A stretch of DNA of 64,000 nt from Acinetobacter pittii ANC 4050 (lineage in GTDB: Bacteria > Pseudomonadota > Gammaproteobacteria > Pseudomonadales > Moraxellaceae): positions 248,001 through 312,000 of the forward strand of contig NZ_KB976987.1 of the NCBI RefSeq assembly GCF_000399685.1, read 5' to 3'. Both the position numbers and the translations under genes were made by a program. The notes under the pieces are model-generated. The model searched no databases. It saw nothing but the letters and a program-made list of their open reading frames with translations, and was not told the origin of the DNA. This document shows positions 27,831-62,099 of this stretch, piece after piece; the stretch's first letter is position 1, and the number at the start of each line of letters is the position of its first letter.

Positions 27831-27907
27831 AGGTGTATAGCTCAGTTGGTTAGAGCGCTACGTTGACATCGTAGAGGTCTCCAGTTCGAGTCTGGATATA
27901 CCTACCA
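27831..27907 (+). tRNA. tRNA-Val (GAC anticodon)
   Basis: A full cloverleaf can be drawn. The acceptor stem is AGGTGTA with TATACCT (one G-T pair), the D arm GCTC/GAGC, the anticodon stem CTACG/CGTAG with loop TTGACAT (anticodon GAC), and the T arm TCCAG-TTCGAGT-CTGGA. The discriminator A and CCA are encoded. It is the integration target: its 3' end forms the left copy of the 37-bp direct repeat of the element. Confidence 0.95.
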
Positions 27908-27929
27908 AGATATTAAAATCATATAAACT
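27893..27929 (+). repeat. attL: left 37-bp direct repeat
   Basis: Starts with TGGATATACCTACCA (end of the tRNA) and ends ATATAAACT. It is identical to 58293-58329. Similarity continues imperfectly for about 60 bp further at both ends, including a shared hairpin terminator. Confidence 0.9.
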
Positions 27930-27949
27930 TGCATAGCTTTATTTGACCT

Positions 27950-27987
27950 AAAAAAGCCCTAAATTATAATGATTTAGGGCTTTTTTA
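27950..27987 (+). terminator. Terminator downstream of tRNA-Val
   Basis: AAAAAGCCCTAAAT and ATTTAGGGCTTTTT form a long hairpin with a T-run. A close copy (three or so changes, several compensatory) stands at 58351-58387 beside attR. Confidence 0.85.
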
Positions 27988-28078: not shown

Positions 28079-28099
28079 AGCTTGTTTGCCATAATTTGT

Positions 28100-29305
28100 A
28101 TGAAAAGAACTGCAATTAAGAAAAGACCCTTATCTGATACGACTTTGGCTAGTCTTGAGCCAGAAGATAAAGACTATAGAGAATTGGATAGTAATGGTCT
28201 GTATTTCCTCGTACAAATGAAAGGAAATAAATCATGGCAATTAAGATATAAAAAACCTGATGGCAAGTGGTCTTGGATGGGGCTAGGAGCTTATCCAGCT
28301 ATTAGTGGAGCATTAGCCAGAAAGAAAGCAAATGAAATATTAAATAAGCTTTCTAATGGTGAGATGATACAAACCAAGGCAGATACAAGAAAACAGGCCA
28401 TTGAGCGAGAAGCGCTGCTATTTAAAAATCTCATGTATGACTGGTTAAATACTAAAGAGCCAAATTGGGGATTTGATACTTTTGATAAAGCAAAGAAATC
28501 TATTGAAAGGCACATTATTCCTAAATTTGGAAATAGAGACTTTACTAGTATTTCACCTAAAGAATGGTTTGATTTCTTCCAAAGTCTACAGCGTGATTTA
28601 GGTATTTACACTCAGACTGAAAAGCTGACGTCTTATTGTCGTAATGCATATGATTGGGCAAAGTTCCAAGAGAAAATAAAATTTAATCCGCTAGAAGGTA
28701 TAACAAAACATCTTGATAAAAATCAGGGCGGGAATATGAAGTTTGTCGATATTGATGAATTTCCTGCTTTGATTAGAGCTATCAGAAGTTATCCGAAACG
28801 GGATAAAGCAATTGGTTTGGAATTATTTGCTTTATTGTTTCCGCGTCCTGTCGAATTAAGATATGCCACTTGGGATCAATTCGATCTTGATAAAGCTGTA
28901 TGGATTAAGCCAGCTGTAATCATGAAAAAAGATATTCCTCATGCGGTACCTTTACCTCGTCAGGCTATAGTACTTTTAAAAGAATTATTAACTTATAAAA
29001 CTGAATCTAACTTTCTTTTCCCTGGAAGAGGAAGTTTAAGCGAACCCGTTTCAGACAATACATTTAATACAGCATTGAATCGATTGGGATATAAAGATAG
29101 ACAAAATCCTCATGGCTTTAGACACATTGCCAGTACTCAGCTAAACAATAGATTTAGTGATAAAGAGCAGGTAGTAGAAGCCACACTGGCACATTTAAAG
29201 AAAGGCGTTAAAGGTGTCTATGACAAAGGAGCTCACTTTGAAGAGCGTGTAGTTATGATGCAGTGGTGGGCAGATGAAATTGATAGGATAGTTGAAAATG
29301 GCTAA
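28100..29305 (+). CDS. Tyrosine integrase (P4/DUF4102 type)
   Basis: Site-specific recombinase that should insert and excise the element at tRNA-Val. 401 residues from ATG 28100. The N-terminal arm-binding DUF4102 domain (LDSNGLYFLVQMKGNKSWQ, then WMGLGAYPAIS) is followed by a core-binding domain and the catalytic domain. Catalytic residues are the Arg of RPVELRYATW, the HGFRHIAS box (HxxR), the LAHLKKG His and the Tyr in GVYDKG. A TTG start at 28082 in frame is possible but has no better ribosome site. Its stop overlaps the start of the next gene. Confidence 0.95.
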   Translation: MKRTAIKKRPLSDTTLASLEPEDKDYRELDSNGLYFLVQMKGNKSWQLRYKKPDGKWSWMGLGAYPAISGALARKKANEILNKLSNGEMIQTKADTRKQAIEREALLFKNLMYDWLNTKEPNWGFDTFDKAKKSIERHIIPKFGNRDFTSISPKEWFDFFQSLQRDLGIYTQTEKLTSYCRNAYDWAKFQEKIKFNPLEGITKHLDKNQGGNMKFVDIDEFPALIRAIRSYPKRDKAIGLELFALLFPRPVELRYATWDQFDLDKAVWIKPAVIMKKDIPHAVPLPRQAIVLLKELLTYKTESNFLFPGRGSLSEPVSDNTFNTALNRLGYKDRQNPHGFRHIASTQLNNRFSDKEQVVEATLAHLKKGVKGVYDKGAHFEERVVMMQWWADEIDRIVENG

Positions 29306-31729: not shown

Positions 31730-32443
31730 ATGAATCAATTAGTTAATCCATCAATTCTTAAGATGACTAGTCTGGAAATTTCCGACTTGGTTCAATCTGA
31801 GCATAGAAATGTAAAAGTCTCAATTGAGAGACTCATGCAAAAAGGCGTGATTCGAAATACTCCAATGACGAATTTCGAAAGAATCAATAACTTAGGGCTT
31901 ACTTCAAAAGTTGGGGTATATATTTTTGAAGGTGAACAAGGTAAACGAGACAGCATCATTGTCGTGGCCCAACTTTGTCCAGAGTTCACGGCGAGTTTAG
32001 TCGATCGTTGGCAAGAACTTGAATATAAAGTTAAGGATGAAGTGGTGGTAGATATTTCTAACCCTCATGCTTTACGCCGTGCTCTTTTGGACTATACAGA
32101 GCAAGTAATTCATCTTGAAACTCAGAACCAGTCTTTAGAAAAAACGATCAACACCATTACTCAAACACCTACTGGTGTGAAGTTTCAGCAAGCTTGCAAG
32201 ATCTTAAATATTAAAAGGGAAGTATTGGCCAACTGGTTACGTAAACATGGCTGGGATCGCAAGCTTAACGGAGTACGTGCTTCAACTTACTACAGTCAGG
32301 AGCGCGGCTATTGCGAAACCAAGTATGAAGAAGTGGCTCGGATTCGACCTAATGGTGATCCATATACCTTTACCAAAATAGAGTTCTTCATCCTTCCTAA
32401 AGGTATGAATGTTCTAGCTAAACATTTTGGTAAGGGGGCTTAA
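31730..32443 (+). CDS. Phage regulatory protein, Rha-like N-terminus with KilAC C-terminus
   Basis: Phage-type antirepressor/regulator of 237 residues. The N-terminal ~95 residues (LEISDLVQSEHRNVKVSIERL, then SIIVVAQLCPEFTASLVDRWQELE) resemble the Rha domain. A coiled linker (about 105-140) leads to a C-terminal KilAC/ANT domain (KFQQACKILNIKREVLANWL to FTKIEFFILPKGMNVLAKHF). Likely binds DNA and counters a repressor. It sits in a tight operon with the genes on either side. Confidence 0.85.
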   Translation: MNQLVNPSILKMTSLEISDLVQSEHRNVKVSIERLMQKGVIRNTPMTNFERINNLGLTSKVGVYIFEGEQGKRDSIIVVAQLCPEFTASLVDRWQELEYKVKDEVVVDISNPHALRRALLDYTEQVIHLETQNQSLEKTINTITQTPTGVKFQQACKILNIKREVLANWLRKHGWDRKLNGVRASTYYSQERGYCETKYEEVARIRPNGDPYTFTKIEFFILPKGMNVLAKHFGKGA

Positions 32444-32696: not shown

Positions 32697-33015
32697 GAAT
32701 CTAATACCTATATTTTTAACAATACTTCTTGCAAGCTGTCATGTGCCTAGTTATGCTAAGGACGTTCATCAGAAAGCAGATGAGCTAACCTTGGCCGGTT
32801 ATATCGCAAAAGGCGCACAGTCCGCTTATCGGGCTTTTTTTGTGCGTAAAATCTCTATGCACCTGCATGTTACGGCGGGGCTGGAGAGGGACACCTTCGG
32901 GTGTGCAGGTGACCTTTTGCGCCTGTCGGCCAACCCTTTTCAGCTTCGCCACCCTCACTTGGCCGTGAATGGTGAAGCTCCAAACTTGCAAAAGGAGCGC
33001 ATTCATAATGCCTAA
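32683..33015 (+). CDS. Putative small lipoprotein or secreted protein (3' half uncertain)
   Basis: Frame of 110 residues. The N-terminus (MEKHKNLIPIFLTILLASC) is a plausible lipoprotein signal with lipobox LLASC. From about 32870 on, the DNA folds into hairpins that recur elsewhere in the window, so the C-terminal half may be read through a structured RNA. It overlaps the upstream gene by 14 nt. Could be a lysis- or membrane-related peptide; not recognised. Confidence 0.45.
   Translation: MEKHKNLIPIFLTILLASCHVPSYAKDVHQKADELTLAGYIAKGAQSAYRAFFVRKISMHLHVTAGLERDTFGCAGDLLRLSANPFQLRHPHLAVNGEAPNLQKERIHNA
32873..32966 (+). ncRNA. Candidate structured RNA, copy A
   Basis: Contains the tetraloop hairpin ACACC-TTCG-GGTGT and flanking AGAGGG and CAACCCT arms. 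Related in order and sequence to a second region at 61999-62091 (GAGAGGGACACC, GGTGTGC, CTGTC-CAACCCT and GCCACC are shared). The role is unknown, and RNA nature is inferred from the hairpin and its recurrence. Confidence 0.4.
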
Positions 33016-33325
33016 TAACAACTCGTCTTTAAAAAATTCTCATATAGAGCTTGCTATAAAAACTTATGACGCTAGTGATGTGTCTGAAGGTTATGCATTG
33101 GCATATGAACAGGTTGCTGACCTCGCTGTAATGCTTGATTCCATTCGTAGTAAATATGAAAAAACAGCAGAGTACCTGCAACAAGTCTATAACGTGCCAG
33201 AAAGCGTATTTAAAGATTTAAAACGTCTTTTGAATATTACAGATAGCATGATTGATGAAAATCTGGAGTTTTCAAAAGCACAAGAAGATCAGTTTCAAAA
33301 AGAATATGAGGAGTCACAAGCATGA
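33008..33325 (+). CDS. Hypothetical helical protein upstream of the primase
   Basis: 105 residues from ATG 33008 (MPNNNSSLK), with AAGGAG upstream. Mostly helical (MLDSIRSKYEKTAEYLQQVY; LKRLLNITDSMIDENLEFSKA), acidic at the C-terminus, perhaps coiled coil. Its end overlaps the primase start by 4 nt (ATGA), so the two are translationally coupled. Possible replication accessory; function unknown. Confidence 0.75.
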   Translation: MPNNNSSLKNSHIELAIKTYDASDVSEGYALAYEQVADLAVMLDSIRSKYEKTAEYLQQVYNVPESVFKDLKRLLNITDSMIDENLEFSKAQEDQFQKEYEESQA

Positions 33326-35769
33326 CTAAACGTGACGCCTCAAACATGACACCAACTGAAGTTTTGGCTCATTGTCAGATATATACACCTAATCAAACTG
33401 AATATCTTCAGCATAAAATTATCCAGCGTTTTGGTGGACCAAATCAGTCTATCTATATTGATCCAAATAGAGTTGAGATAGATAGCGTTGAATACTCTAA
33501 TCCCTTAATTCTACCGATCTATAACGGTGAATTGAGTATCATCCAATGTGCCGTTATGGAAAGTGGAAAAACTATTTCTGTCTTTCCTGAAGGGTTGGCC
33601 AGAGGGTTTGCTTGTTATGGTGAATTACAGCATGACAAGCCTGTAATTATTACTTATAGCCTTGAGTCTTTCTTTAAGATTGCTTCTAGTGGGTTATCTG
33701 TAGTGCTGGTCGTACTCAACAACTTATGTGCTTCACGCTTAGCAAAAACGCTTAAGGCTTTCGATTTTGAGCAGATCCAGTTTGTCATTAATCAATTGGC
33801 ACAAGCTGGATTTAAAAAGCTTTACCTACCTGTACGACCTGAATATTTTAAAAATGATGCCTTCCAGAAGCTCGAGCAGAATACTGCTGTTCGCTTAATT
33901 AACCAGTACCAGAAAATTGACGAGACTGAATTTCTAATCGAACTGACTAAAGATGAAGATCCGGAAGAAGTTACGGCATTTTTAAAGGAAGCTATTGCCA
34001 GACTTCCTCATACTGAACCTTTACCAAAAGGCCATTTGGCCAAACCATTTAAATGGGGTGATGGACGGTTTCATCTTTTAGAAACAGGTTTGTACTTTTT
34101 AGAAACGAATAACAAGGGAGATGACTATAAGCGTTATATCTCTAGTCCAATTAAAGTTGTTGCTCTGACTCGAGATAATTCCAGTACCTCATGGGGACGG
34201 TTGCTCGAATGGTACGATCCAGATGGCATTAAACACCTACAAGCCGTGTCTATGGAGTTCTTCCAATCTGACGGCGTAGAACTACGGAAAGCACTTTCTT
34301 ATCAAGGTATGACTATAGCGCCAGATGCTAAAGCAAGAAGCTTATTACAAAGCTATTTGATGAGTTATCCGGTCGAGCAGAGGGCCTTATGTGTCGATCG
34401 TGTGGGCTGGCATGATGAAGTGTATGTATTACCTCATTGTGAAGTTGGCCAAAGTAAAGATAACGATTTAATTGTCTATCAGGCTATTCACGGTTTAGAT
34501 AATCGCTATCAAAGCAACGGCACATTAATTCAATGGAGAGAAGAGGTATCTAAACTCGCTCAGAACCATAGCAAATTAGTATGTGCCATTAGCACGGCGT
34601 TTGCTGGCCAGCTTTTAGGTCCACTTGAACAACAGAATGGAGCAGGCGTTCACTTTGTTGGTAAATCATCTAAAGGTAAATCAACGGCATTATTTTTAGG
34701 TTGTAGTGTATGGGGTAAACCGAGCCGTTTTTATCGTACATGGCGAGCTACTGGTAATGCTCTGGAACATACGGCCTATATGCACAATGATAGCTTTTTA
34801 GCTTTAGATGAGATTGGAGAAATTGCTAACCCTAAAGAGCTGGGCAACATTGTGTATATGCTGGCCAATGGATTGGGTAAGGCTCGTTTAAACAAGCAAA
34901 TCACAGCTAAGCCTGCTTTTAACTGGAAGCTTATCTTTCTATCCAGTGGGGAAGAAGGACTCAAAGATATTATGGCCAAGCATGGTCAAAAGGCCAAACT
35001 AGGACAAGAGATCCGCTTAATTGATATTGATGTAGACCAATCAGAATATGGTGTGTTTGACAGTATTGATTTTGCTTCAGATGGAGCAATGCAATCTAGA
35101 ATGTTAGTAGAGCATTCAAACATGTATTACGGCGAAGCAGGTATAGCGTGGCTTGAATATCTCTGTAGCGATAAAAATGAAATTATTAAACAAGCTCGAC
35201 AGTTATGGGAACAATATCGAGAGCCATTAATTGATGGTCATTCAGAAGGCCATATTATCCGTGTAGCCAATACATTTGCTTTGATTGCTACAGCTGGTGA
35301 ACTGGCAACACAAGCGGGAATAACTGGTTGGAAAGTCGGCACTGCATTTAATGCTATACGGGCTGTGTTTGAACAATGGTTAGGTAGCTTTGACCGAGTT
35401 GGAAATTATGAAGATCTGGAAATTCTGGCTCAGATAAAAGCTTTCTTTGAAGCACATGGTAACAGTCGTTTTGAATGTATGACACCAGATGCGGAACATC
35501 TAGATAAAGTTATTAATCGAGTAGGTTATTGGAAGATTGAGAACGGCGAAAAGAAATATCTGGTCTATCCGGAACAATTTAAAAAAGAGCTTTGCAAAGG
35601 ACTAAATCCTAAACGTGTAGGCAAGTTACTTATACAACGTGGATGGCTGGATCATCTTAATAATGGCAAGTCTACAAAGCTCATCCGAGGTATAGATGGC
35701 ATGCCTAAAGCTATTCCTATGTATGTATTTAATGAAAAGGTACTCACAGATGATCTGGATGAACACTAG
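33322..35769 (+). CDS. DUF927-type primase-helicase of a satellite/plasmid-like element
   Basis: Replication protein of 815 residues. The N-terminal third has a Toprim-like primase segment (KPVIITYSLESFFKIASSGLS). The middle holds a DUF927 helicase with Walker A GKSSKGKST and Walker B FLALDEIGE, followed by the sensor-like KLIFLSSGEEGL. The C-terminal ~130 residues look like a winged-helix DNA-binding domain. By analogy with the P4 alpha protein it should start replication at an iteron origin; GGTTAC iterons lie directly downstream. It starts 4 nt inside the previous gene. Confidence 0.88.
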   Translation: MTKRDASNMTPTEVLAHCQIYTPNQTEYLQHKIIQRFGGPNQSIYIDPNRVEIDSVEYSNPLILPIYNGELSIIQCAVMESGKTISVFPEGLARGFACYGELQHDKPVIITYSLESFFKIASSGLSVVLVVLNNLCASRLAKTLKAFDFEQIQFVINQLAQAGFKKLYLPVRPEYFKNDAFQKLEQNTAVRLINQYQKIDETEFLIELTKDEDPEEVTAFLKEAIARLPHTEPLPKGHLAKPFKWGDGRFHLLETGLYFLETNNKGDDYKRYISSPIKVVALTRDNSSTSWGRLLEWYDPDGIKHLQAVSMEFFQSDGVELRKALSYQGMTIAPDAKARSLLQSYLMSYPVEQRALCVDRVGWHDEVYVLPHCEVGQSKDNDLIVYQAIHGLDNRYQSNGTLIQWREEVSKLAQNHSKLVCAISTAFAGQLLGPLEQQNGAGVHFVGKSSKGKSTALFLGCSVWGKPSRFYRTWRATGNALEHTAYMHNDSFLALDEIGEIANPKELGNIVYMLANGLGKARLNKQITAKPAFNWKLIFLSSGEEGLKDIMAKHGQKAKLGQEIRLIDIDVDQSEYGVFDSIDFASDGAMQSRMLVEHSNMYYGEAGIAWLEYLCSDKNEIIKQARQLWEQYREPLIDGHSEGHIIRVANTFALIATAGELATQAGITGWKVGTAFNAIRAVFEQWLGSFDRVGNYEDLEILAQIKAFFEAHGNSRFECMTPDAEHLDKVINRVGYWKIENGEKKYLVYPEQFKKELCKGLNPKRVGKLLIQRGWLDHLNNGKSTKLIRGIDGMPKAIPMYVFNEKVLTDDLDEH

Positions 35770-36158: not shown

Positions 36159-37538
36159 TTAATTTTCTAGGTTCTTATAATTAAATAAAAGAATATCTGT
36201 CTCTTGAGAAGCATTAAAATAATTTATTGGACCAGTATAGGGTAATATTTGAAAAATCAAAGAATTAAATAAGTTAATACAAAGGAAAAAATTTTCCTTT
36301 TTTTGGTATTGTTTGGAAAGATTATAAACTTTAACTTTTGGGTGGGCTACCTCATTTCTAAGCACTTTCCAAGCTTCAATTTCTTCTTTTTTTAGAATTG
36401 CTGAATCTACTAGTAAAGATAGTGCTTTATTAGCAGTAATGTTTTTTAAATATGAAATAGAATTCATAAGCCTATCTTTATATGTCTGCTCTATCTCTAA
36501 ATCTTTTATTATAGCTCTAATTTTATTAATATCATTTTCTAACTTATCATCTCTTTTGGTTCGCGATAAAATAGGTATAAATATATCATTCAATAAACCT
36601 TCAATTGCTGTTGTTAACGTAAGATTAGTGATGTCTTGCTCGGAATTATAAGAATACCAGACACGTTTCCATTGAGCATAAATACTACGGAAAATGTCTG
36701 GCTTTTCTTTACTCAATTGGATAGAACTTCTTAAAATATTAAAATGATATTCTCCATCTCTAAATATATCATTTCTCAATGAGTAAGGGATGGCTGGCAT
36801 AAATTTTTTATTTAGATAAAGTTTATTAGTACTATATAATGTAATGGTTTCTTGATTGTTATAATTGCAAATTGAATAATAAGGTTGCAATAAAACCCCA
36901 GAAGTTAAACCGAGATAAAAGGCTAAACAGTCTATTAATGCTTCAGGATCTTCAGCACCTTCAACTACTATAAAATTTTGATTATCTTTATCATTGTTAA
37001 CTATTCTTATTCTATAATTTTCTTTTTCAAAATTAATTATAGATTCATTCCATGATGATGAGCTAGTGCCTAAAGTAGAAGTGCTTTGATTTAGTTTGTT
37101 TCTAGGGATACTAATACTTTGATTAAACTCTAAATAAAGGTAATTTTTAGAACTAACTGAAGAAGGATTAGTAATTATTAGGTTAATTAATAGAATATGG
37201 TGAATAGATGTTTTAGCAATAGACAATACATTTAAAGTAAACCGAAATCCCTCACTTTTAAATATTTTTCCTTGTGTATCCGTTGCGTCCAAATAGCAAG
37301 TTTGAGACTCATCAAGCATGTCACTAGGAAGCTGTAAGTCCCATTTTATATGAGGAATATTTTTTTTCTTTAAGCAGACAAATTCTAAATAGAAAGTACC
37401 AAAATCATTAATTTTAATAATCCCATATCCCTCTAAAATCAAACCGTTCTTTTGGTAAATTTTGACTGAAGGGCAGTGGGTTTCAAATGTGAAATTCCGT
37501 ATTTTTTCAAGAGCTTTATCTGAAATTGTATTTATCAT
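36159..37538 (-). CDS. HEPN-domain protein, ApeA-like (candidate antiphage RNase)
   Basis: Protein of 459 residues. The N-terminal ~300 residues are beta-rich and unrecognised. The C-terminal ~150 residues are helical and end the conserved part with WKVLRNEVAHPK, an R-x4-H motif (Arg394, His399) that marks catalytic HEPN ribonucleases. The layout (large N-terminal domain plus C-terminal HEPN) resembles ApeA-type abortive-infection proteins. It follows the GHKL gene on the same strand by 91 nt, so the two are probably an operon. The DNA is very AT-rich compared with the core genes. Antiphage role is inference. Confidence 0.68.
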   Translation of the reverse strand: MINTISDKALEKIRNFTFETHCPSVKIYQKNGLILEGYGIIKINDFGTFYLEFVCLKKKNIPHIKWDLQLPSDMLDESQTCYLDATDTQGKIFKSEGFRFTLNVLSIAKTSIHHILLINLIITNPSSVSSKNYLYLEFNQSISIPRNKLNQSTSTLGTSSSSWNESIINFEKENYRIRIVNNDKDNQNFIVVEGAEDPEALIDCLAFYLGLTSGVLLQPYYSICNYNNQETITLYSTNKLYLNKKFMPAIPYSLRNDIFRDGEYHFNILRSSIQLSKEKPDIFRSIYAQWKRVWYSYNSEQDITNLTLTTAIEGLLNDIFIPILSRTKRDDKLENDINKIRAIIKDLEIEQTYKDRLMNSISYLKNITANKALSLLVDSAILKKEEIEAWKVLRNEVAHPKVKVYNLSKQYQKKENFFLCINLFNSLIFQILPYTGPINYFNASQETDILLFNYKNLEN

Positions 37539-37629
37539 TTATTATACCAATTGAAAATTAATATTTAATTCTTAACTAACTTTAAAGAACTATTCAAAAT
37601 TTATTTAAAAAATAATGAAGAATAGTAAT

Positions 37630-39666
37630 TTAGTTTGAAGGTAGACCTAGCTTATCAAAAAAAGCTCTATTCCTTTCTTTTGCAGAATTCACTAAGCGAT
37701 CAAAGGATATAACTTCGATATAACAATTAATATTTTTTTTATAACCAAAAAATCCTAATTTATCTTCTGTTTCTGTTAAATCATGCACATCTCTACAACG
37801 TTCCTTCATAGAAGAAGTTAAATCACAAATTACATAACAAAAACCTGGTATATCTTTAGAATCAGGAATAGGACGCCCAGATGCTGTAGTTGTATTACCA
37901 TTTCTAATTCTTTTTAGGTAACCAAAAACTTGCTCAACTGGATCTTTATCTTCTCCAGATGAAGTATCATTCCTCATTGGTCTTTTAATTTCAATAATTG
38001 TAAGGGTGGCTAAAGGAAGTTTTTTGCCCTCCGCGACTAGTAACGGTTCATCGTAAACATTCAAAGCACAAATATCGGGCTCTTTATTCTCTTTACTCTC
38101 TGTAATAGGCATAGAGTTTAAGGTCTTATCAGATGCTAAGAAATCATGAAAGGCGAGCCTCTCATTAATTAACCATAAATTGCAATTTTCTAGTAAAACT
38201 TCATCAGATGTTTTTCTCATAGGCATAATAAGTTGATGAATTAAGTCTTCCCGAGCATATTTACCATCAGGTCCACGTTGGATAGCTTTTTCAAGGATAT
38301 CAAGGATGACTTTCCTGTTACATACATAACCTGCGAGATCTGATTTTTTTATATCATCAATTTTTTCCATATATTTTGTTATTTCAGTTTCATATTCATC
38401 CTTTTTACTAACAGTTTTATTTAATATCTCATGACCTTCAGCTAATACACTATTTTCAACTTCAGAGAGTTGTTTATGAAGAAGTAGATCTAAATCTTTA
38501 TCTGATATTTCTGGATTCACAAAAAATAATGGTTCTGGTATGTATTTTAATATTGATCTATATCGGGGAGCTTTTTTAGCTACAAAGTCATTTACTCTTT
38601 TTTTTCCAAGCTCTTTACTCTCATTTAAATATTCATTGAGATAGGTGGAGATTTTGGCGTAAGCGGCTTCTCTAATTTTTGGCTCTGTTATGCCGGTTGC
38701 ATACAAATCTTCATCATTAAGATTTGATAAATTGAAATCTATACGTTCAGGACGTACGTTTTCATCCAAAAACTTAGAAGTTAAGTAGCAACAGTAAGTA
38801 AAATCTTCACCCTTAGCTTGTATACGACCATGCAGACCAGGGATCTTTCCTGAGGTTATATTCTCTTCTTTCACTACTCGACCAGCAGCACACCAAGCAA
38901 TACAAGATTGTTTCGCTTTTGATTTAAGTTTTATATGTAAAAGTTCAAACTCTACCTCTCCAATTTTGAAAGAGTCTGAATAGGCCGTACCATACATATG
39001 TTGATCAAAAAGATCATTTAAATTAATAGTTTCTTCTTGATCTTTAATAAAAATATTAGGTGCCCCATTTTCTCTAACAAAGTACCATAGACAATGTTCA
39101 AGTAAGCTTTCAGCGATATTTATACAAGATTTAGGCGCTCTTTTTTCATATTTATCTATAAAATCTTCTAATGTAATCACAGTTTTATTTTCTTCTAAAA
39201 TAGCTAACTTTTTCTCTTCTAGTCGATATACCCCATTTTTTGCATTAAATAAGAATGTCTTCAATTTCGGATCATGATTTTCATCAATAAATTCACTATA
39301 AACAGAAACATTCGTGAAAGCTTTTAGCCACATTAAACGACCAATACCTCTACATCCTTGACTAGCTTTATACTCGCTGTCTAAAGTTTCGAAAGACAAC
39401 ATATTGTTCTTGGTAAAGCCAATACCATTATCAATAATTTTAAAACCGTAAATAGGCGTAGATTTTTCTTCTTGAGGTACAGCAACATTCAATGTATTTT
39501 GAATTTTTCTCATAATTTCTATTGTTATTGTACCAGTTGCTAATATTTTAGCTTCATCTATAGCATGAATAGAGTTTACAACGGCTTCAAATAAAGGCAT
39601 TAAACTTTGACTATAAGGTAAAGTTGTATTACGTAAACGACCTTGTAAAGATGTATTCAGAGCCAT
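37630..39666 (-). CDS. GHKL ATPase with PD-(D/E)xK-like C-terminal domain
   Basis: Protein of 678 residues. The N-terminal GHKL (Hsp90/MutL-type) fold shows the N-box EAVVNSIHAIDE (Glu27, Asn31), the G1 box DNGIGF (Asp79-Gly83) and the G2 box GCRGIGR (104-110). A middle helical region follows (about 340-480). The C-terminal ~150 residues have PD-(D/E)xK features: EPDICALN, then TLTIIEIKRPMRN, then EQVFGYLKRIRNG. This suggests an ATP-gated nuclease. It lies upstream of the HEPN gene on the same strand, with the structured array immediately beyond its start. I do not recognise it as a named defence family. Confidence 0.72.
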   Translation of the reverse strand: MALNTSLQGRLRNTTLPYSQSLMPLFEAVVNSIHAIDEAKILATGTITIEIMRKIQNTLNVAVPQEEKSTPIYGFKIIDNGIGFTKNNMLSFETLDSEYKASQGCRGIGRLMWLKAFTNVSVYSEFIDENHDPKLKTFLFNAKNGVYRLEEKKLAILEENKTVITLEDFIDKYEKRAPKSCINIAESLLEHCLWYFVRENGAPNIFIKDQEETINLNDLFDQHMYGTAYSDSFKIGEVEFELLHIKLKSKAKQSCIAWCAAGRVVKEENITSGKIPGLHGRIQAKGEDFTYCCYLTSKFLDENVRPERIDFNLSNLNDEDLYATGITEPKIREAAYAKISTYLNEYLNESKELGKKRVNDFVAKKAPRYRSILKYIPEPLFFVNPEISDKDLDLLLHKQLSEVENSVLAEGHEILNKTVSKKDEYETEITKYMEKIDDIKKSDLAGYVCNRKVILDILEKAIQRGPDGKYAREDLIHQLIMPMRKTSDEVLLENCNLWLINERLAFHDFLASDKTLNSMPITESKENKEPDICALNVYDEPLLVAEGKKLPLATLTIIEIKRPMRNDTSSGEDKDPVEQVFGYLKRIRNGNTTTASGRPIPDSKDIPGFCYVICDLTSSMKERCRDVHDLTETEDKLGFFGYKKNINCYIEVISFDRLVNSAKERNRAFFDKLGLPSN

Positions 39667-39767
39667 GCCTATTCCAAGCGAACATTTATTATTGAGATGA
39701 GTATAGGCTATTAAAATTCATCTATTCAATAATAGTAATTCATATAAAGTTAAATCTTTCCTTAAAA
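39667..39767. other. AT-rich spacer with the probable promoter of the GHKL gene
   Basis: 101 bp between the GHKL start codon and the first arm of the array. It is AT-rich. I see no clear consensus promoter but expect one on the minus strand. Confidence 0.35.
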
Positions 39768-41171
39768 TTTTGCTGGACATCAGTCATCTAAAACATAATT
39801 CAAATAACTCTCAAGTCTTTATAGCGGAAGACTTACTTCAACTTTTCTTAAAAAGAATTTCGTCTAGCTACGTCTAGCAAAAATTAGTCTTATGGCGCTA
39901 TATCTTTGGATACCAGAAAAATAGGTTCTAACCTATAGATTGCAAGCTTTACGTCTATTTTGACAAATACTGTTTCGTAAGGCTACGTAAGAGTAAATAA
40001 GTACAAATTCATTTTTAGATTTTGTATGACTACGTATAACAAAAGTGAAAACTTTAACTCGAAATCACTTCTCATTTCCTTGATGGTCAACTTATAGAAA
40101 GATCATTAAATTGCTCTCAAAAGTCCATGAATAATACATCTTATTAATTTTTGATAATCGAAATTTCATCAAGGGACATCAAGGAAACTTCTAATTTTTA
40201 CTTATACGAAGTGCTTGCAATTTACCTTGACAGACTATTGTACTAAAGCTGACTATTTTTCTTTTAAATCTTTTATATACCAATGGTTACAGACTATTTT
40301 TACAAGCTTTAAAAAATTGAATTTCGTCAAGGTACGTCAAGGAAGCTTTTACTTTTTGTGTATATAAAGGGTTTGCAAGTTAGGTTTATATAGAACTCCT
40401 AAAAAAAGAAGACCTATCTCAAATTTTTATATAGCAAGGTTTGCAGGCAATTTTAATAGATTAGAAAAGTTGAATTTCATCAACGTACATCAACGTAAAA
40501 TGGCATCTTAAAATTTAATCTTTAGTTATTTATCTAATAAAGAATTAGCTGTACAGCAATATTTGGAGGAAATAACTTCTATGCTAGGCAGTGCAAAGGT
40601 TTCGGCTCTTTTATAATTTTCATTTTGTACAGCTACGTACAACAAAAAACATGATTTATATTCGATTCTGTCTAAGTATGTCTAAGTAATTTTGCTTTAC
40701 GTCCATTTATATAAAATACGCCGTAAGCTATGTGCCATAAGGGTTCGTAGCTTTTTTCAAATATTCATCTCGTAAAGCTACGTAAAGCAAAAACATGATT
40801 TTTATTCAATTCTATCTAAGTACATCTAAGTAATTACTTGGACGGCTTAGCCATCGAAGATAATTTAAAATGCTCTATAAGCTATGTATATCAATGGATG
40901 AAGCAGATTTCTAGAAAGTATATTTATCTAAACCTGTCCAAGTACGTCCAAGTAAATTTTGCTTTACAGCGTTTTATGAAAAATACACCGTACGCTATGG
41001 GTCAGTAGGGTTTTAGTTTTTCTAAACCTCCATCTAGTAAAGCCACGTAAAGCAAAAAACTTAGCTTTTTGTTTGACGGCGGTTATCTTTAATTTCTTTG
41101 AAAAACTAGATATAGAAAGGCCTTGACTGAATTTTGAAGCATTGAATTTGTCAAACTACGTCAAACAAAAA
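39768..41171 (+). repeat. Array of 13 tandem 8-mer pairs with co-varying upstream arms (unrecognised structured elements)
   Basis: No gene is present. Each unit has an 8-mer, a 2-nt spacer (mostly TA) and the same 8-mer again, pattern YRTNNARS-TA-CRTNNARS. Starts and second copies: 39861 CGTCTAGC, 39976 CGTAAGAG, 40023 CGTATAAC, 40167 CATCAAGG, 40325 CGTCAAGG, 40478 CATCAACG, 40626 CGTACAAC, 40669 TGTCTAAG, 40771 CGTAAAGC, 40813 CATCTAAG, 40935 CGTCCAAG, 41036 CGTAAAGC, 41149 CGTCAAAC. Reverse-complement arms of 7-13 nt lie 80-111 nt upstream at 39768, 39884, 40075, 40225, 40546, 40690, 40834, 40957 and 41066. The arms change together with the 8-mers. All units point the same way. Function unknown. 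Confidence 0.85.
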
Positions 41172-41233
41172 ATTATTTTCTTTATTGATTAAAATTTTAA
41201 TTCTTCAGGAGTCACTTCTTTAATAAAATTCAA

Positions 41234-41248
41234 ATGAGAAAAACTCAT
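41234..41248. promoter_or_regulatory. LysR-type operator ATGAGAAAAACTCAT upstream of lysR
   Basis: Perfect inverted repeat ATGAG-N5-CTCAT with T-N11-A geometry, 225 nt before the LysR start. The identical 15-mer, and its next base A, occurs at 47685 before the Rieske operon. Confidence 0.7.
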
Positions 41249-41473
41249 AGATAGAATACTTTTACTCACTTTTTATTAAATTATATTTATGAGATTTTAG
41301 GGCTTTCCTGAGAAATGGATCATAATTGAAGAAATTCAAACCATTTATGCCGAGAATATCTGGTTTATTCGCTATTAGTATGTTCAAAAGACAATTTTCA
41401 TAGTAAATAGCGGAATAAAAGAACTCGAATTGGAAAAGAGTTTTTAAGGAAATAGGACAAATTAGGAGTGTCC

Positions 41474-58292: not shown

Positions 58293-58329
58293 TGGATATA
58301 CCTACCAAGATATTAAAATCATATAAACT
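58293..58329 (+). repeat. attR: right 37-bp direct repeat
   Basis: Identical to 27893-27929. Beyond it, similarity to the region after the tRNA continues imperfectly to about 58390. Confidence 0.9.
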
Positions 58330-58348
58330 CACATAGCTTTATATGACT

Positions 58349-58388
58349 TAAAAAGCCCTAAACTATAATGGTTTAGGGCTTTTTTATT
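58349..58388. terminator. Copy of the tRNA-Val terminator beside attR
   Basis: AAAAGCCCTAAAC and GTTTAGGGCTTTTTT form a hairpin equivalent to 27950-27987. It lies about 110 nt beyond the stop of the minus-strand four-gene cassette and could also end that transcript. Confidence 0.75.
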
Positions 58389-61998: not shown

Positions 61999-62091
61999 CG
62001 TTCCCTCCCGTAGCGGTAGGACGGGAGAGGGACACCTATGGTGTGCTAGTTGAGTGACTAGTCTGTCAACCCTCTTTCGTTCTGCCACCAT
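61999..62091 (+). ncRNA. Candidate structured RNA, copy B
   Basis: Related to 32873-32966. GGGAGAGGGACACC, then GGTGTGC, then CTGTCAACCCT and GCCACC occur in the same order; the hairpin ACACC-TAT-GGTGT replaces the TTCG tetraloop version. CCCG/CGGG and ACTAGT-type arms lie inside. Its repetition beside two different mobile segments is the main support. Confidence 0.4.
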
Positions 62092-62099
62092 AATTCTTA

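Follow-up and report, generated by a model that had tools for sequence, protein, structure and literature searches.

An array of three-copy sequence words on an Acinetobacter island, probably mimicking packaging-start sites of phages with presumed small terminase subunits (DUF2280)

Packaging sites of satellites and helpers

Among described elements, the PICIs would resemble the island reported here in that a terminase-less island is packaged via helper-like sites, in that more than one such site can be present and in that helpers show a preference among the sites (PMC6092414). EcCICFT073 carries two functional cos sites and is transferred by lambda and phi80, and SaPIbov4 has two putative cos sites (PMC6092414). 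However, as far as PMC9026076 describes them, PICIs possess one or two sites, which are alike in cosN and lack a clear helper cosB, whereas the present island has about 13 sites of the TerS type comprising at least 11 different words. Neither a cosN-like sequence nor an Rpp-type adaptor was identified in this island.

With regard to the architecture of the single site, the nearest worked-out case would be lambda cosB, for which a TerS hold across bent DNA has been proposed. In the account of PMC9026076, its elements are ordered R3, IHF site I1, R2 and R1, with a bend between R3 and R2. The likeness lies in three TerS-binding sequences (putative ones in the array) of mixed orientation, one of which is set apart over a bendable stretch. 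The two layouts differ in orientation, as lambda R2 runs opposite to R3 and R1 (PMC9026076), whereas the array combines two direct copies 10 bp apart with an inverted copy 85-121 bp away. In addition, lambda cosB has an IHF site between its separated TerS sites (PMC9026076), whereas the arrays show no enrichment of the IHF consensus.

Two further systems share single traits with the island. The staphylococcal oriT mimics are a case in which a non-autonomous element mimics the transfer site of another element, with several specificity types and a protein reading them; they serve conjugation and not phage packaging, however, and long many-word arrays are not mentioned in the abstract of that study (PMC8136818). 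The PICMI satellites of Vibrionaceae are likewise small satellites, for which headful-like packaging has been suggested (PMC10803314). The packaging site is not identified in that account, whereas here the candidate site itself is the finding.

We analysed a stretch of 64,000 nucleotides from Acinetobacter pittii ANC 4050, referred to as the window (G000:C1:248001-312000; genome size 3.84 Mb), which contains an array of paired 8-mers. In our view each unit of this array is probably a mimic of a TerS packaging-start site, and the array would allow the satellite island carrying it to be packaged by helpers that differ in TerS specificity. What appears to be new is the combination of many sites and many words in one array; no report of a many-word packaging-site array was found in the open-licence literature.

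A gene-free array of doublets on a genomic island

The thirteen tandem 8-mer pairs named in the original prediction are all present: between positions 39861 and 41166 there are 13 doublets, each composed of an 8-mer, 2 nt and a second 8-mer (10-bp period), all on the + strand (Table 1). The region was also correctly called gene-free, as a scan of six frames of 39667-41467 revealed no stop-free stretch of more than 69 codons. Exact period-10 repeats of 8-mers start at 16 positions in the 64-kb window, 14 of which belong to the array, and for periods 6-19 other than 10 there are zero exact 8-mer repeats within it; chance is therefore excluded as the origin of the doublets. The proposed rule YRTNNARS is followed by most units, but not by all, since the first copy at 41036 begins with AGT.

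Most doublets are accompanied by an upstream inverted third copy of the word. With D defined as the start-to-start distance between the inverted 8-mer and copy 2, 10 of the 13 window units have such a copy at D 85-110. Compared with copy 2, six of these arms have at most one mismatch and four more have two, the latter sitting at the same preferred distances, and no convincing third copy was seen in the remaining 3 units. The earlier count of nine units with an upstream arm was thus about right, and the six arm pairs quoted as examples are all exact.

Table 1. Features of the island and units of the array (window coordinates; D, start of inverted 8-mer to start of copy 2)
Feature	Position	Strand	Remarks
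Left direct repeat, tRNA-Val 3' end and beyond, putative attL	27893..27950	+	93% over 58 nt with right copy
Tyrosine integrase	28082..29305	+	phrog_1, E 2.8e-55
Ant-type antirepressor	31730..32443	+	beside C4 RNA
C4 antisense RNA	32868..32956	+	RF01695, 69.4 bits
DUF927 primase/helicase	33322..35769	+	same strand as the doublets
459-aa protein	36159..37538	-	without Pfam, PADLOC or PHROG family
678-aa protein	37630..39666	-	weak sub-threshold matches only: topoisomerase VI B, LiaS kinase (GHKL-type); without Pfam, PADLOC or PHROG family
Unit 1 doublet CGTCTAGC-TA-CGTCTAGC	39861..39878	+	third copy 39772-39779, 2 mismatches, D 99
Unit 2 degenerate doublet (2 mismatches between copies)	39976..39993	+	third copy 39887-39894, 2 mismatches, D 99
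Unit 3 doublet TGTATGAC-TA-CGTATAAC	40023..40040	+	third copy 39946-39953, 2 mismatches, D 87
Unit 4 doublet CATCAAGG	40167..40184	+	third copy 40078-40085, exact, D 99
Unit 5 doublet CGTCAAGG	40325..40342	+	third copy 40225-40232, 1 mismatch, D 110
Unit 6 doublet CATCAACG	40478..40495	+	third copy not convincing (3 mismatches)
Unit 7 doublet TGTACAGC-TA-CGTACAAC	40626..40643	+	third copy 40548-40555, exact to copy 1, 2 mismatches to copy 2, D 88
Unit 8 doublet TGTCTAAG	40669..40686	+	third copy not convincing (3 mismatches)
Unit 9 doublet CGTAAAGC	40771..40788	+	third copy 40694-40701, exact, D 87
Unit 10 doublet TATCTAAG-TA-CATCTAAG	40813..40830	+	third copy not convincing (3 mismatches)
Unit 11 doublet TGTCCAAG-TA-CGTCCAAG	40935..40952	+	third copy 40837-40844, exact, D 108
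Unit 12 doublet AGTAAAGC-CA-CGTAAAGC	41036..41053	+	third copy 40961-40968, 1 mismatch, D 85
Unit 13 doublet TGTCAAAC-TA-CGTCAAAC	41149..41166	+	third copy 41071-41078, exact, D 88
Right direct repeat, putative attR	58293..58350	+	repeat of 27893..27950

The array is part of a mobile element, as had been suspected. The island (27893-58350) comprises, in this order, the integrase, family-less genes, Ant, the C4 RNA, the DUF927 primase, the genes for the 459-aa and 678-aa proteins, the array, a LysR gene and a catabolic block. The direct repeats enclose 30.4 kb, more than is usual for a satellite, and this segment is missing from the corresponding place in G007, the only genome of the same species that was examined. 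What marks the island as a probable satellite is an integrase with direct repeats, a primase and regulatory genes, together with packaging genes not being found in an ORF comparison. For the latter, 14 TerS-bearing stretches supplied 60 query ORFs (minimum length 250 aa), and at E 1e-8 none of them matched within 27893-58340, giving no indication of an own terminase, portal or capsid gene. Against 15 other array stretches the same 60 ORFs produced one match, 118 aa long with 36% identity, which links L044 to a 316-aa ORF beside TerS in L057. No genes of CRISPR, TIGR, integron attC, REP or retron systems were found among the proteins scanned.

The catabolic block of ~17 kb encodes LysR, a peptidase, two BCCT transporters, a Rieske oxygenase, a rubredoxin-type reductase and an aldehyde dehydrogenase, is for the most part colinear with segments located elsewhere in G017 and G062, and may represent cargo. 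Packaging of the island would bear on gene flow in the genus because of this cargo, that is, the catabolic block and the genes without a known family. A second C4 antisense RNA (RF01695) lies at 62009-62092, beyond the right repeat, the first one standing beside Ant.

In comparisons with phage sequences the array yielded zero matches. Among plasmids, two chromosome-sized records match 10% of the query. The A. baumannii records L025 and L026 (3.7 and 4.0 Mb) are filed as plasmids and are chromosome-like in size. The genome of the window contains a lone doublet elsewhere (L047 7715; G000:C1:873714), whose stretch is 78% like 40957-41175 of the window and which is perhaps a remnant of another array.

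Helical phase of the third copy and the single site at phage DUF2280 genes

Taking this island and the related islands together, an inverted 8-mer with at most one mismatch was found in 30 of 62 non-redundant units and is lacking in the other 32. When words were swapped between units (200 swaps), inverted matches fell to an average of 2.0 (never more than 7), showing that the arms change along with the words, as originally proposed. The distances of the 30 close units are not spread evenly: D is 85-88 in 10 units, 98-100 in 13, 108-110 in 5, 121 in one and 61 in one, corresponding to a circular concentration of 0.91 at 11 bp. In a phase test that counted each combination of word and distance once (17 entries with D 80-125, the unit at D 61 being left out), the observed value was not attained in any of 20,000 random placements, the p-values here and elsewhere being rough owing to the partly shared ancestry of units and TerS genes. 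The three D groups were also found in units that had not entered into these counts. Nine of 12 units with exactly two mismatches fall on them, and in four unused arrays (L045, L049, L051 and L066; 19 units) so do 6 of 6 units with at most one mismatch (87, 88, 99, 99, 100 and 110), while of the two-mismatch units in these arrays two lie on the groups (99, 100) and one at 101.

The original prediction had taken the arms for parts of an RNA or ssDNA array, with a left arm able to pair with one or the other of the duplicated 8-mers in the manner of a switch. Structured RNA or ssDNA hairpins of this kind would agree with arms that covary with the words and with a region free of genes. They do not explain, however, why the spacing proceeds in helical turns, nor the kind of mismatches: the 36 non-Watson-Crick cells comprise 28 A-C, 3 G-T and 5 others, and 22 of the 36 concern the first letter of the word, unlike in an RNA helix. 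Helical-turn spacing in combination with A-C rather than G-U mismatches points to a protein on double-stranded DNA. In addition, promoter-like sites are not in excess in the array (6 as compared to 10.3 in shuffles), terminator-like sites were absent from the scan, and Rfam, searched at E up to 5, returned only two sub-threshold matches, both to eukaryotic RNAs. A structured RNA family was rejected for lack of G-U-kept pairs and of any Rfam match at gathering score, the latter agreeing with the earlier description of the element family as unrecognised. As the same sites also occur at TerS genes (see below), we regard hairpins as very improbable, and the apparent pairing is better explained by a single protein-recognition word that is present three times, once in inverted orientation.

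On the reading as TerS sites, a TerS oligomer would hold both direct copies, which are separated by about one helical turn, together with the inverted copy some 8, 9 or 10 turns away, TerS on the doublet reaching the third copy across bent or looped DNA. An IHF site between the copies was considered and not adopted, since the IHF consensus is not enriched there in the arrays (at most two mismatches in 23 of 28 versus 22.1 shuffled; at most one in 7 versus 4.9). At TerS genes the respective values are 68 of 74 versus 50 and, for at most one mismatch, 3 versus 7.9. A motif near AAGGCTTACAG (at most one mismatch), chosen by eye from the very segments counted, stands 20-21 bp before the doublet in 7 of the 10 units of the shortest class. 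It recurs at 22 bp in 2 of 13 units of the next class, in which the added turn lies on the other side of the motif (38 or 48-49 bp to the third copy). Such motifs 20-22 bp before the doublet can be seen in many array units, e.g. L044 9020, L147 5683 and L088 4803.

The three-copy layout of the array also occurs, as a single site, where the DUF2280 gene of Acinetobacter phages begins. This gene adjoins the TerL and portal genes; in L071, DUF2280 (PF10045) is followed by a large terminase (phrog_38) and a Mu-type portal. In phage vB_AbaS_Gln the gene is annotated as terminase small subunit (PP294865), while in PMC7760358 the DUF2280 gene before TerL is listed as function unknown. An AlphaFold model of the protein (mean pLDDT 70.5) has a confident N-terminal helical domain. 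A Foldseek search of the model against the PDB returned nothing at E 0.001 or better, the G20c small terminases following at E 2.5 and worse, and no sequence relative was found in the PDB. Because the fold search lacked a significant match, the fold is not used as proof. From gene place, deposited annotation and the predicted N-terminal helical domain, DUF2280 is likely the small terminase subunit (TerS), and it would be the protein that binds the three-copy sites.

On the strand of the TerS gene, the doublet is located just before the ATG and the inverted third copy within the gene around codons 27-31. We studied 91 TerS loci, of which 33 had been collected by doublet or DNA likeness and 58 through a protein search. 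In every one of them, the best-matching repeat of period 10 within 80 nt has its end 9-14 nt ahead of the start codon. The two copies agree at 8/8 positions in 61 loci, at 7/8 in 21 and at 6/8 in 9 (n=91). Many of these loci overlap, and 67 distinct ones remain after merging of repeats, with L166, which has no register, and two TerS with a misplaced start left out. The pattern is equally clear in IMG/VR. Among the best 80 of 553 relatives, one was cut by the contig end and 24 were redundant; in the resulting 55 non-redundant TerS genes the period-10 doublet is present in 55 of 55 (49 exact), as compared to 0 of 55 at each of the periods 6-9 and 11-15, and an inverted copy with at most one mismatch occurs at D 111-115 in 51 of these 55 from the best 80 of 553. 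Exact matches to CGTAAAGCTACGTAAAGC in IMG/VR are at TerS in 21 of 22 cases, with D 112. All four isolated Acinetobacter phages have an 8/8 doublet. No clear doublet was seen at DUF2280 in four phages from outside the genus (ZF40, Omnitron, ENT47670 and Kp4864-1), in which 5 or 6 of the 8 positions match, ZF40 having a weak one 12 nt before the start and an inverted 8-mer 114 away.

The third copy at TerS mostly lies at a distance of 112, which does not coincide exactly with any class seen in the arrays (110, 99, 88); the distances in the window are ~2 bp, or one to two helical turns, below the phage value. The third copy is situated within the TerS coding sequence (L071 4983-5453 and others), where it covers, for example, V-K-E-E or V-K-Q-E codons. 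DNA word and protein thus constrain each other. A GGC-AAAA block follows the doublet at TerS and is not kept within 18 nt of any of 64 array units; no shared cutting site was therefore found. In our reading, the three-copy site at TerS is a candidate packaging start, and contact of TerS with it would start packaging in the phages.

Since a unit on the + strand is oriented antisense to terS and the phage doublet precedes the start codon directly, the array could alternatively be thought to supply antisense RNAs, or to hold captured terS fragments, that silence terS mRNA around its start codon. Captured fragments should resemble terS between the copies as well, but 0 of 28 between-copy segments match 74 TerS segments at E <0.01. 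At E <1 there are 11 of 28, as compared to 7 to 11 for shuffled segments, while TerS controls score in 20 of 20 cases (self included). This explanation is hardly credible and ranks lowest among those we weighed.

Distribution in the genus and diversity of words

The pattern CRTMHARSTACRTMHARS was detected in 52 of the 119 genomes of the genus searched, and 47 stretches, mainly surrounding these occurrences, were taken. Of the 47, 33 contain a DUF2280 gene, with one doublet by scan in 32 of these (none in L046). The remaining 14 stretches, which lack DUF2280, include every multi-doublet stretch of the 47, and 8 of the 14 have a clear homologue of island genes (DUF927 primase, Ant or the 110-aa gene). 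In the multi-doublet stretches no TerS was found, and the array sites are termed mimics because there is no terS gene behind them. The stretches L045, L047, L049, L051, L066 and L077 contain none of the island's genes at strength, L066 having a weak integrase match. The array loci L045, L049, L051 and L066 are not clearly satellites. In L066, the 7 array units are found close to a phage lysozyme and to a P22-coat-like gene, and the stretch has no DUF927 primase.

DUF927 gave 44 matches in the genus. Three had little contig downstream and were left out, and 41 were examined, including L077, whose primase lies just outside the stretch. Sites of this kind occur in 14 of the 41 elements, some of the 41 having originally been found through their doublets, and 8 elements have three or more; the remaining 27 have no such site. 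The scan rule yields up to 12 sites per element, and the window reaches 13 with its degenerate unit. In IMG/VR, 3 of 4 DUF927 elements have sites. Wherever a DUF927-type primase is in the stretch, the doublets are on the primase strand, i.e. in 58 of 58 accepted units, six doublet-like matches (4 on the primase strand, 2 on the other) having been removed by hand as chance, also ahead of the counts of inverted arms and of repeated words.

The orientation bears on the possibility that the array is a decoy, which titrates TerS of incoming or induced phages, makes packaging of the phages' own DNA less efficient and so protects the host or the island, with no packaging of the island. The same sequence evidence, with many TerS words assembled in one place, would fit such a function. 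Its neighbours at 36159-39666 belong to no known family, and these genes for the 459-aa and 678-aa proteins are possibly defence cargo. A uniform strand, however, is needed for directional packaging and not for titration, the presence of an integrase, a primase and direct repeats speaks for a mobile element, and the single sites in the DUF927 elements L056 and L137 are too few to titrate. A decoy is thus unlikely, albeit the most serious competitor of the packaging-site reading. The two neighbouring genes were rejected as general partners of the array: tblastn found neither of them in 49 other stretches, and the proposed tie between the array and these genes is not a general one.

The words themselves link the arrays to TerS. 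Indeed, 52 of the 62 non-redundant array units contain a word from the vocabulary of the sampled TerS genes. The window array includes both TerS word types, and the copy 2 word of its unit 1 recurs as copy 2 at TerS of a prophage in the same genome (L048). At TerS, the word follows the protein: copy 2 ends with GC or AC in 30 of 31 TerS beginning MA(A/T)L(K)E(P/Q)VK-like and in 0 of 36 of the remaining types, and TerS similarity outside the overlapping codons correlates with word similarity (rho 0.50; maximum of 300 permutations 0.09), although the 67 TerS are related and thus not independent, kinship inflating both the split and the correlation. The plain reading of this link between type and word would be a word code that is read by TerS. 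Within arrays, words are seldom repeated. In 7 arrays, with L064 left out as a relative of L042, there are 2 repeated words among 45 units as compared to 6.2 after shuffling (fraction 0.0115). When the four arrays without satellite genes are added, which entered only this second count of repeats, there are 3 among 64 units in 11 arrays versus 7.5 (fraction 0.0194).

Direct repeats that are one helical turn apart and lie near a primase gene can mark satellite origins. The doublets might accordingly be iterons, or sites of a replication or regulatory protein of the island itself, with a secondary likeness to TerS sites. One protein would keep one word, however, whereas here the words differ between the units of one element. 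Together with the DUF927 elements that are devoid of sites and the share of units with words seen at TerS genes, this makes iterons improbable, if slightly less so than hairpins.

Packaging by helpers can be spelled out in its further steps. In the presence of an active helper, its TerS would find the matching word in the array, and island DNA would be loaded into the helper's heads. Many words per array would widen the choice of helpers, and in this way word diversity may serve helper range. The satellite seems rather likely to keep a selected repertoire of packaging sites, each for the TerS of a different helper lineage, comparable to a multi-helper "key ring", which would record, one word at a time, the TerS specificities that the lineage of the island has met. 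This would be a sequence-level answer to how a satellite uses multiple helpers, namely by many packaging words and not by one. Presumed TerS proteins can be paired with their presumed DNA words across a whole phage group, which makes the recognition code testable, and the helper range of Acinetobacter islands would become predictable from sequence. A contig scan with a single word, finally, identified 25 stretches, 12 of them from Acinetobacter and 13 scattered.
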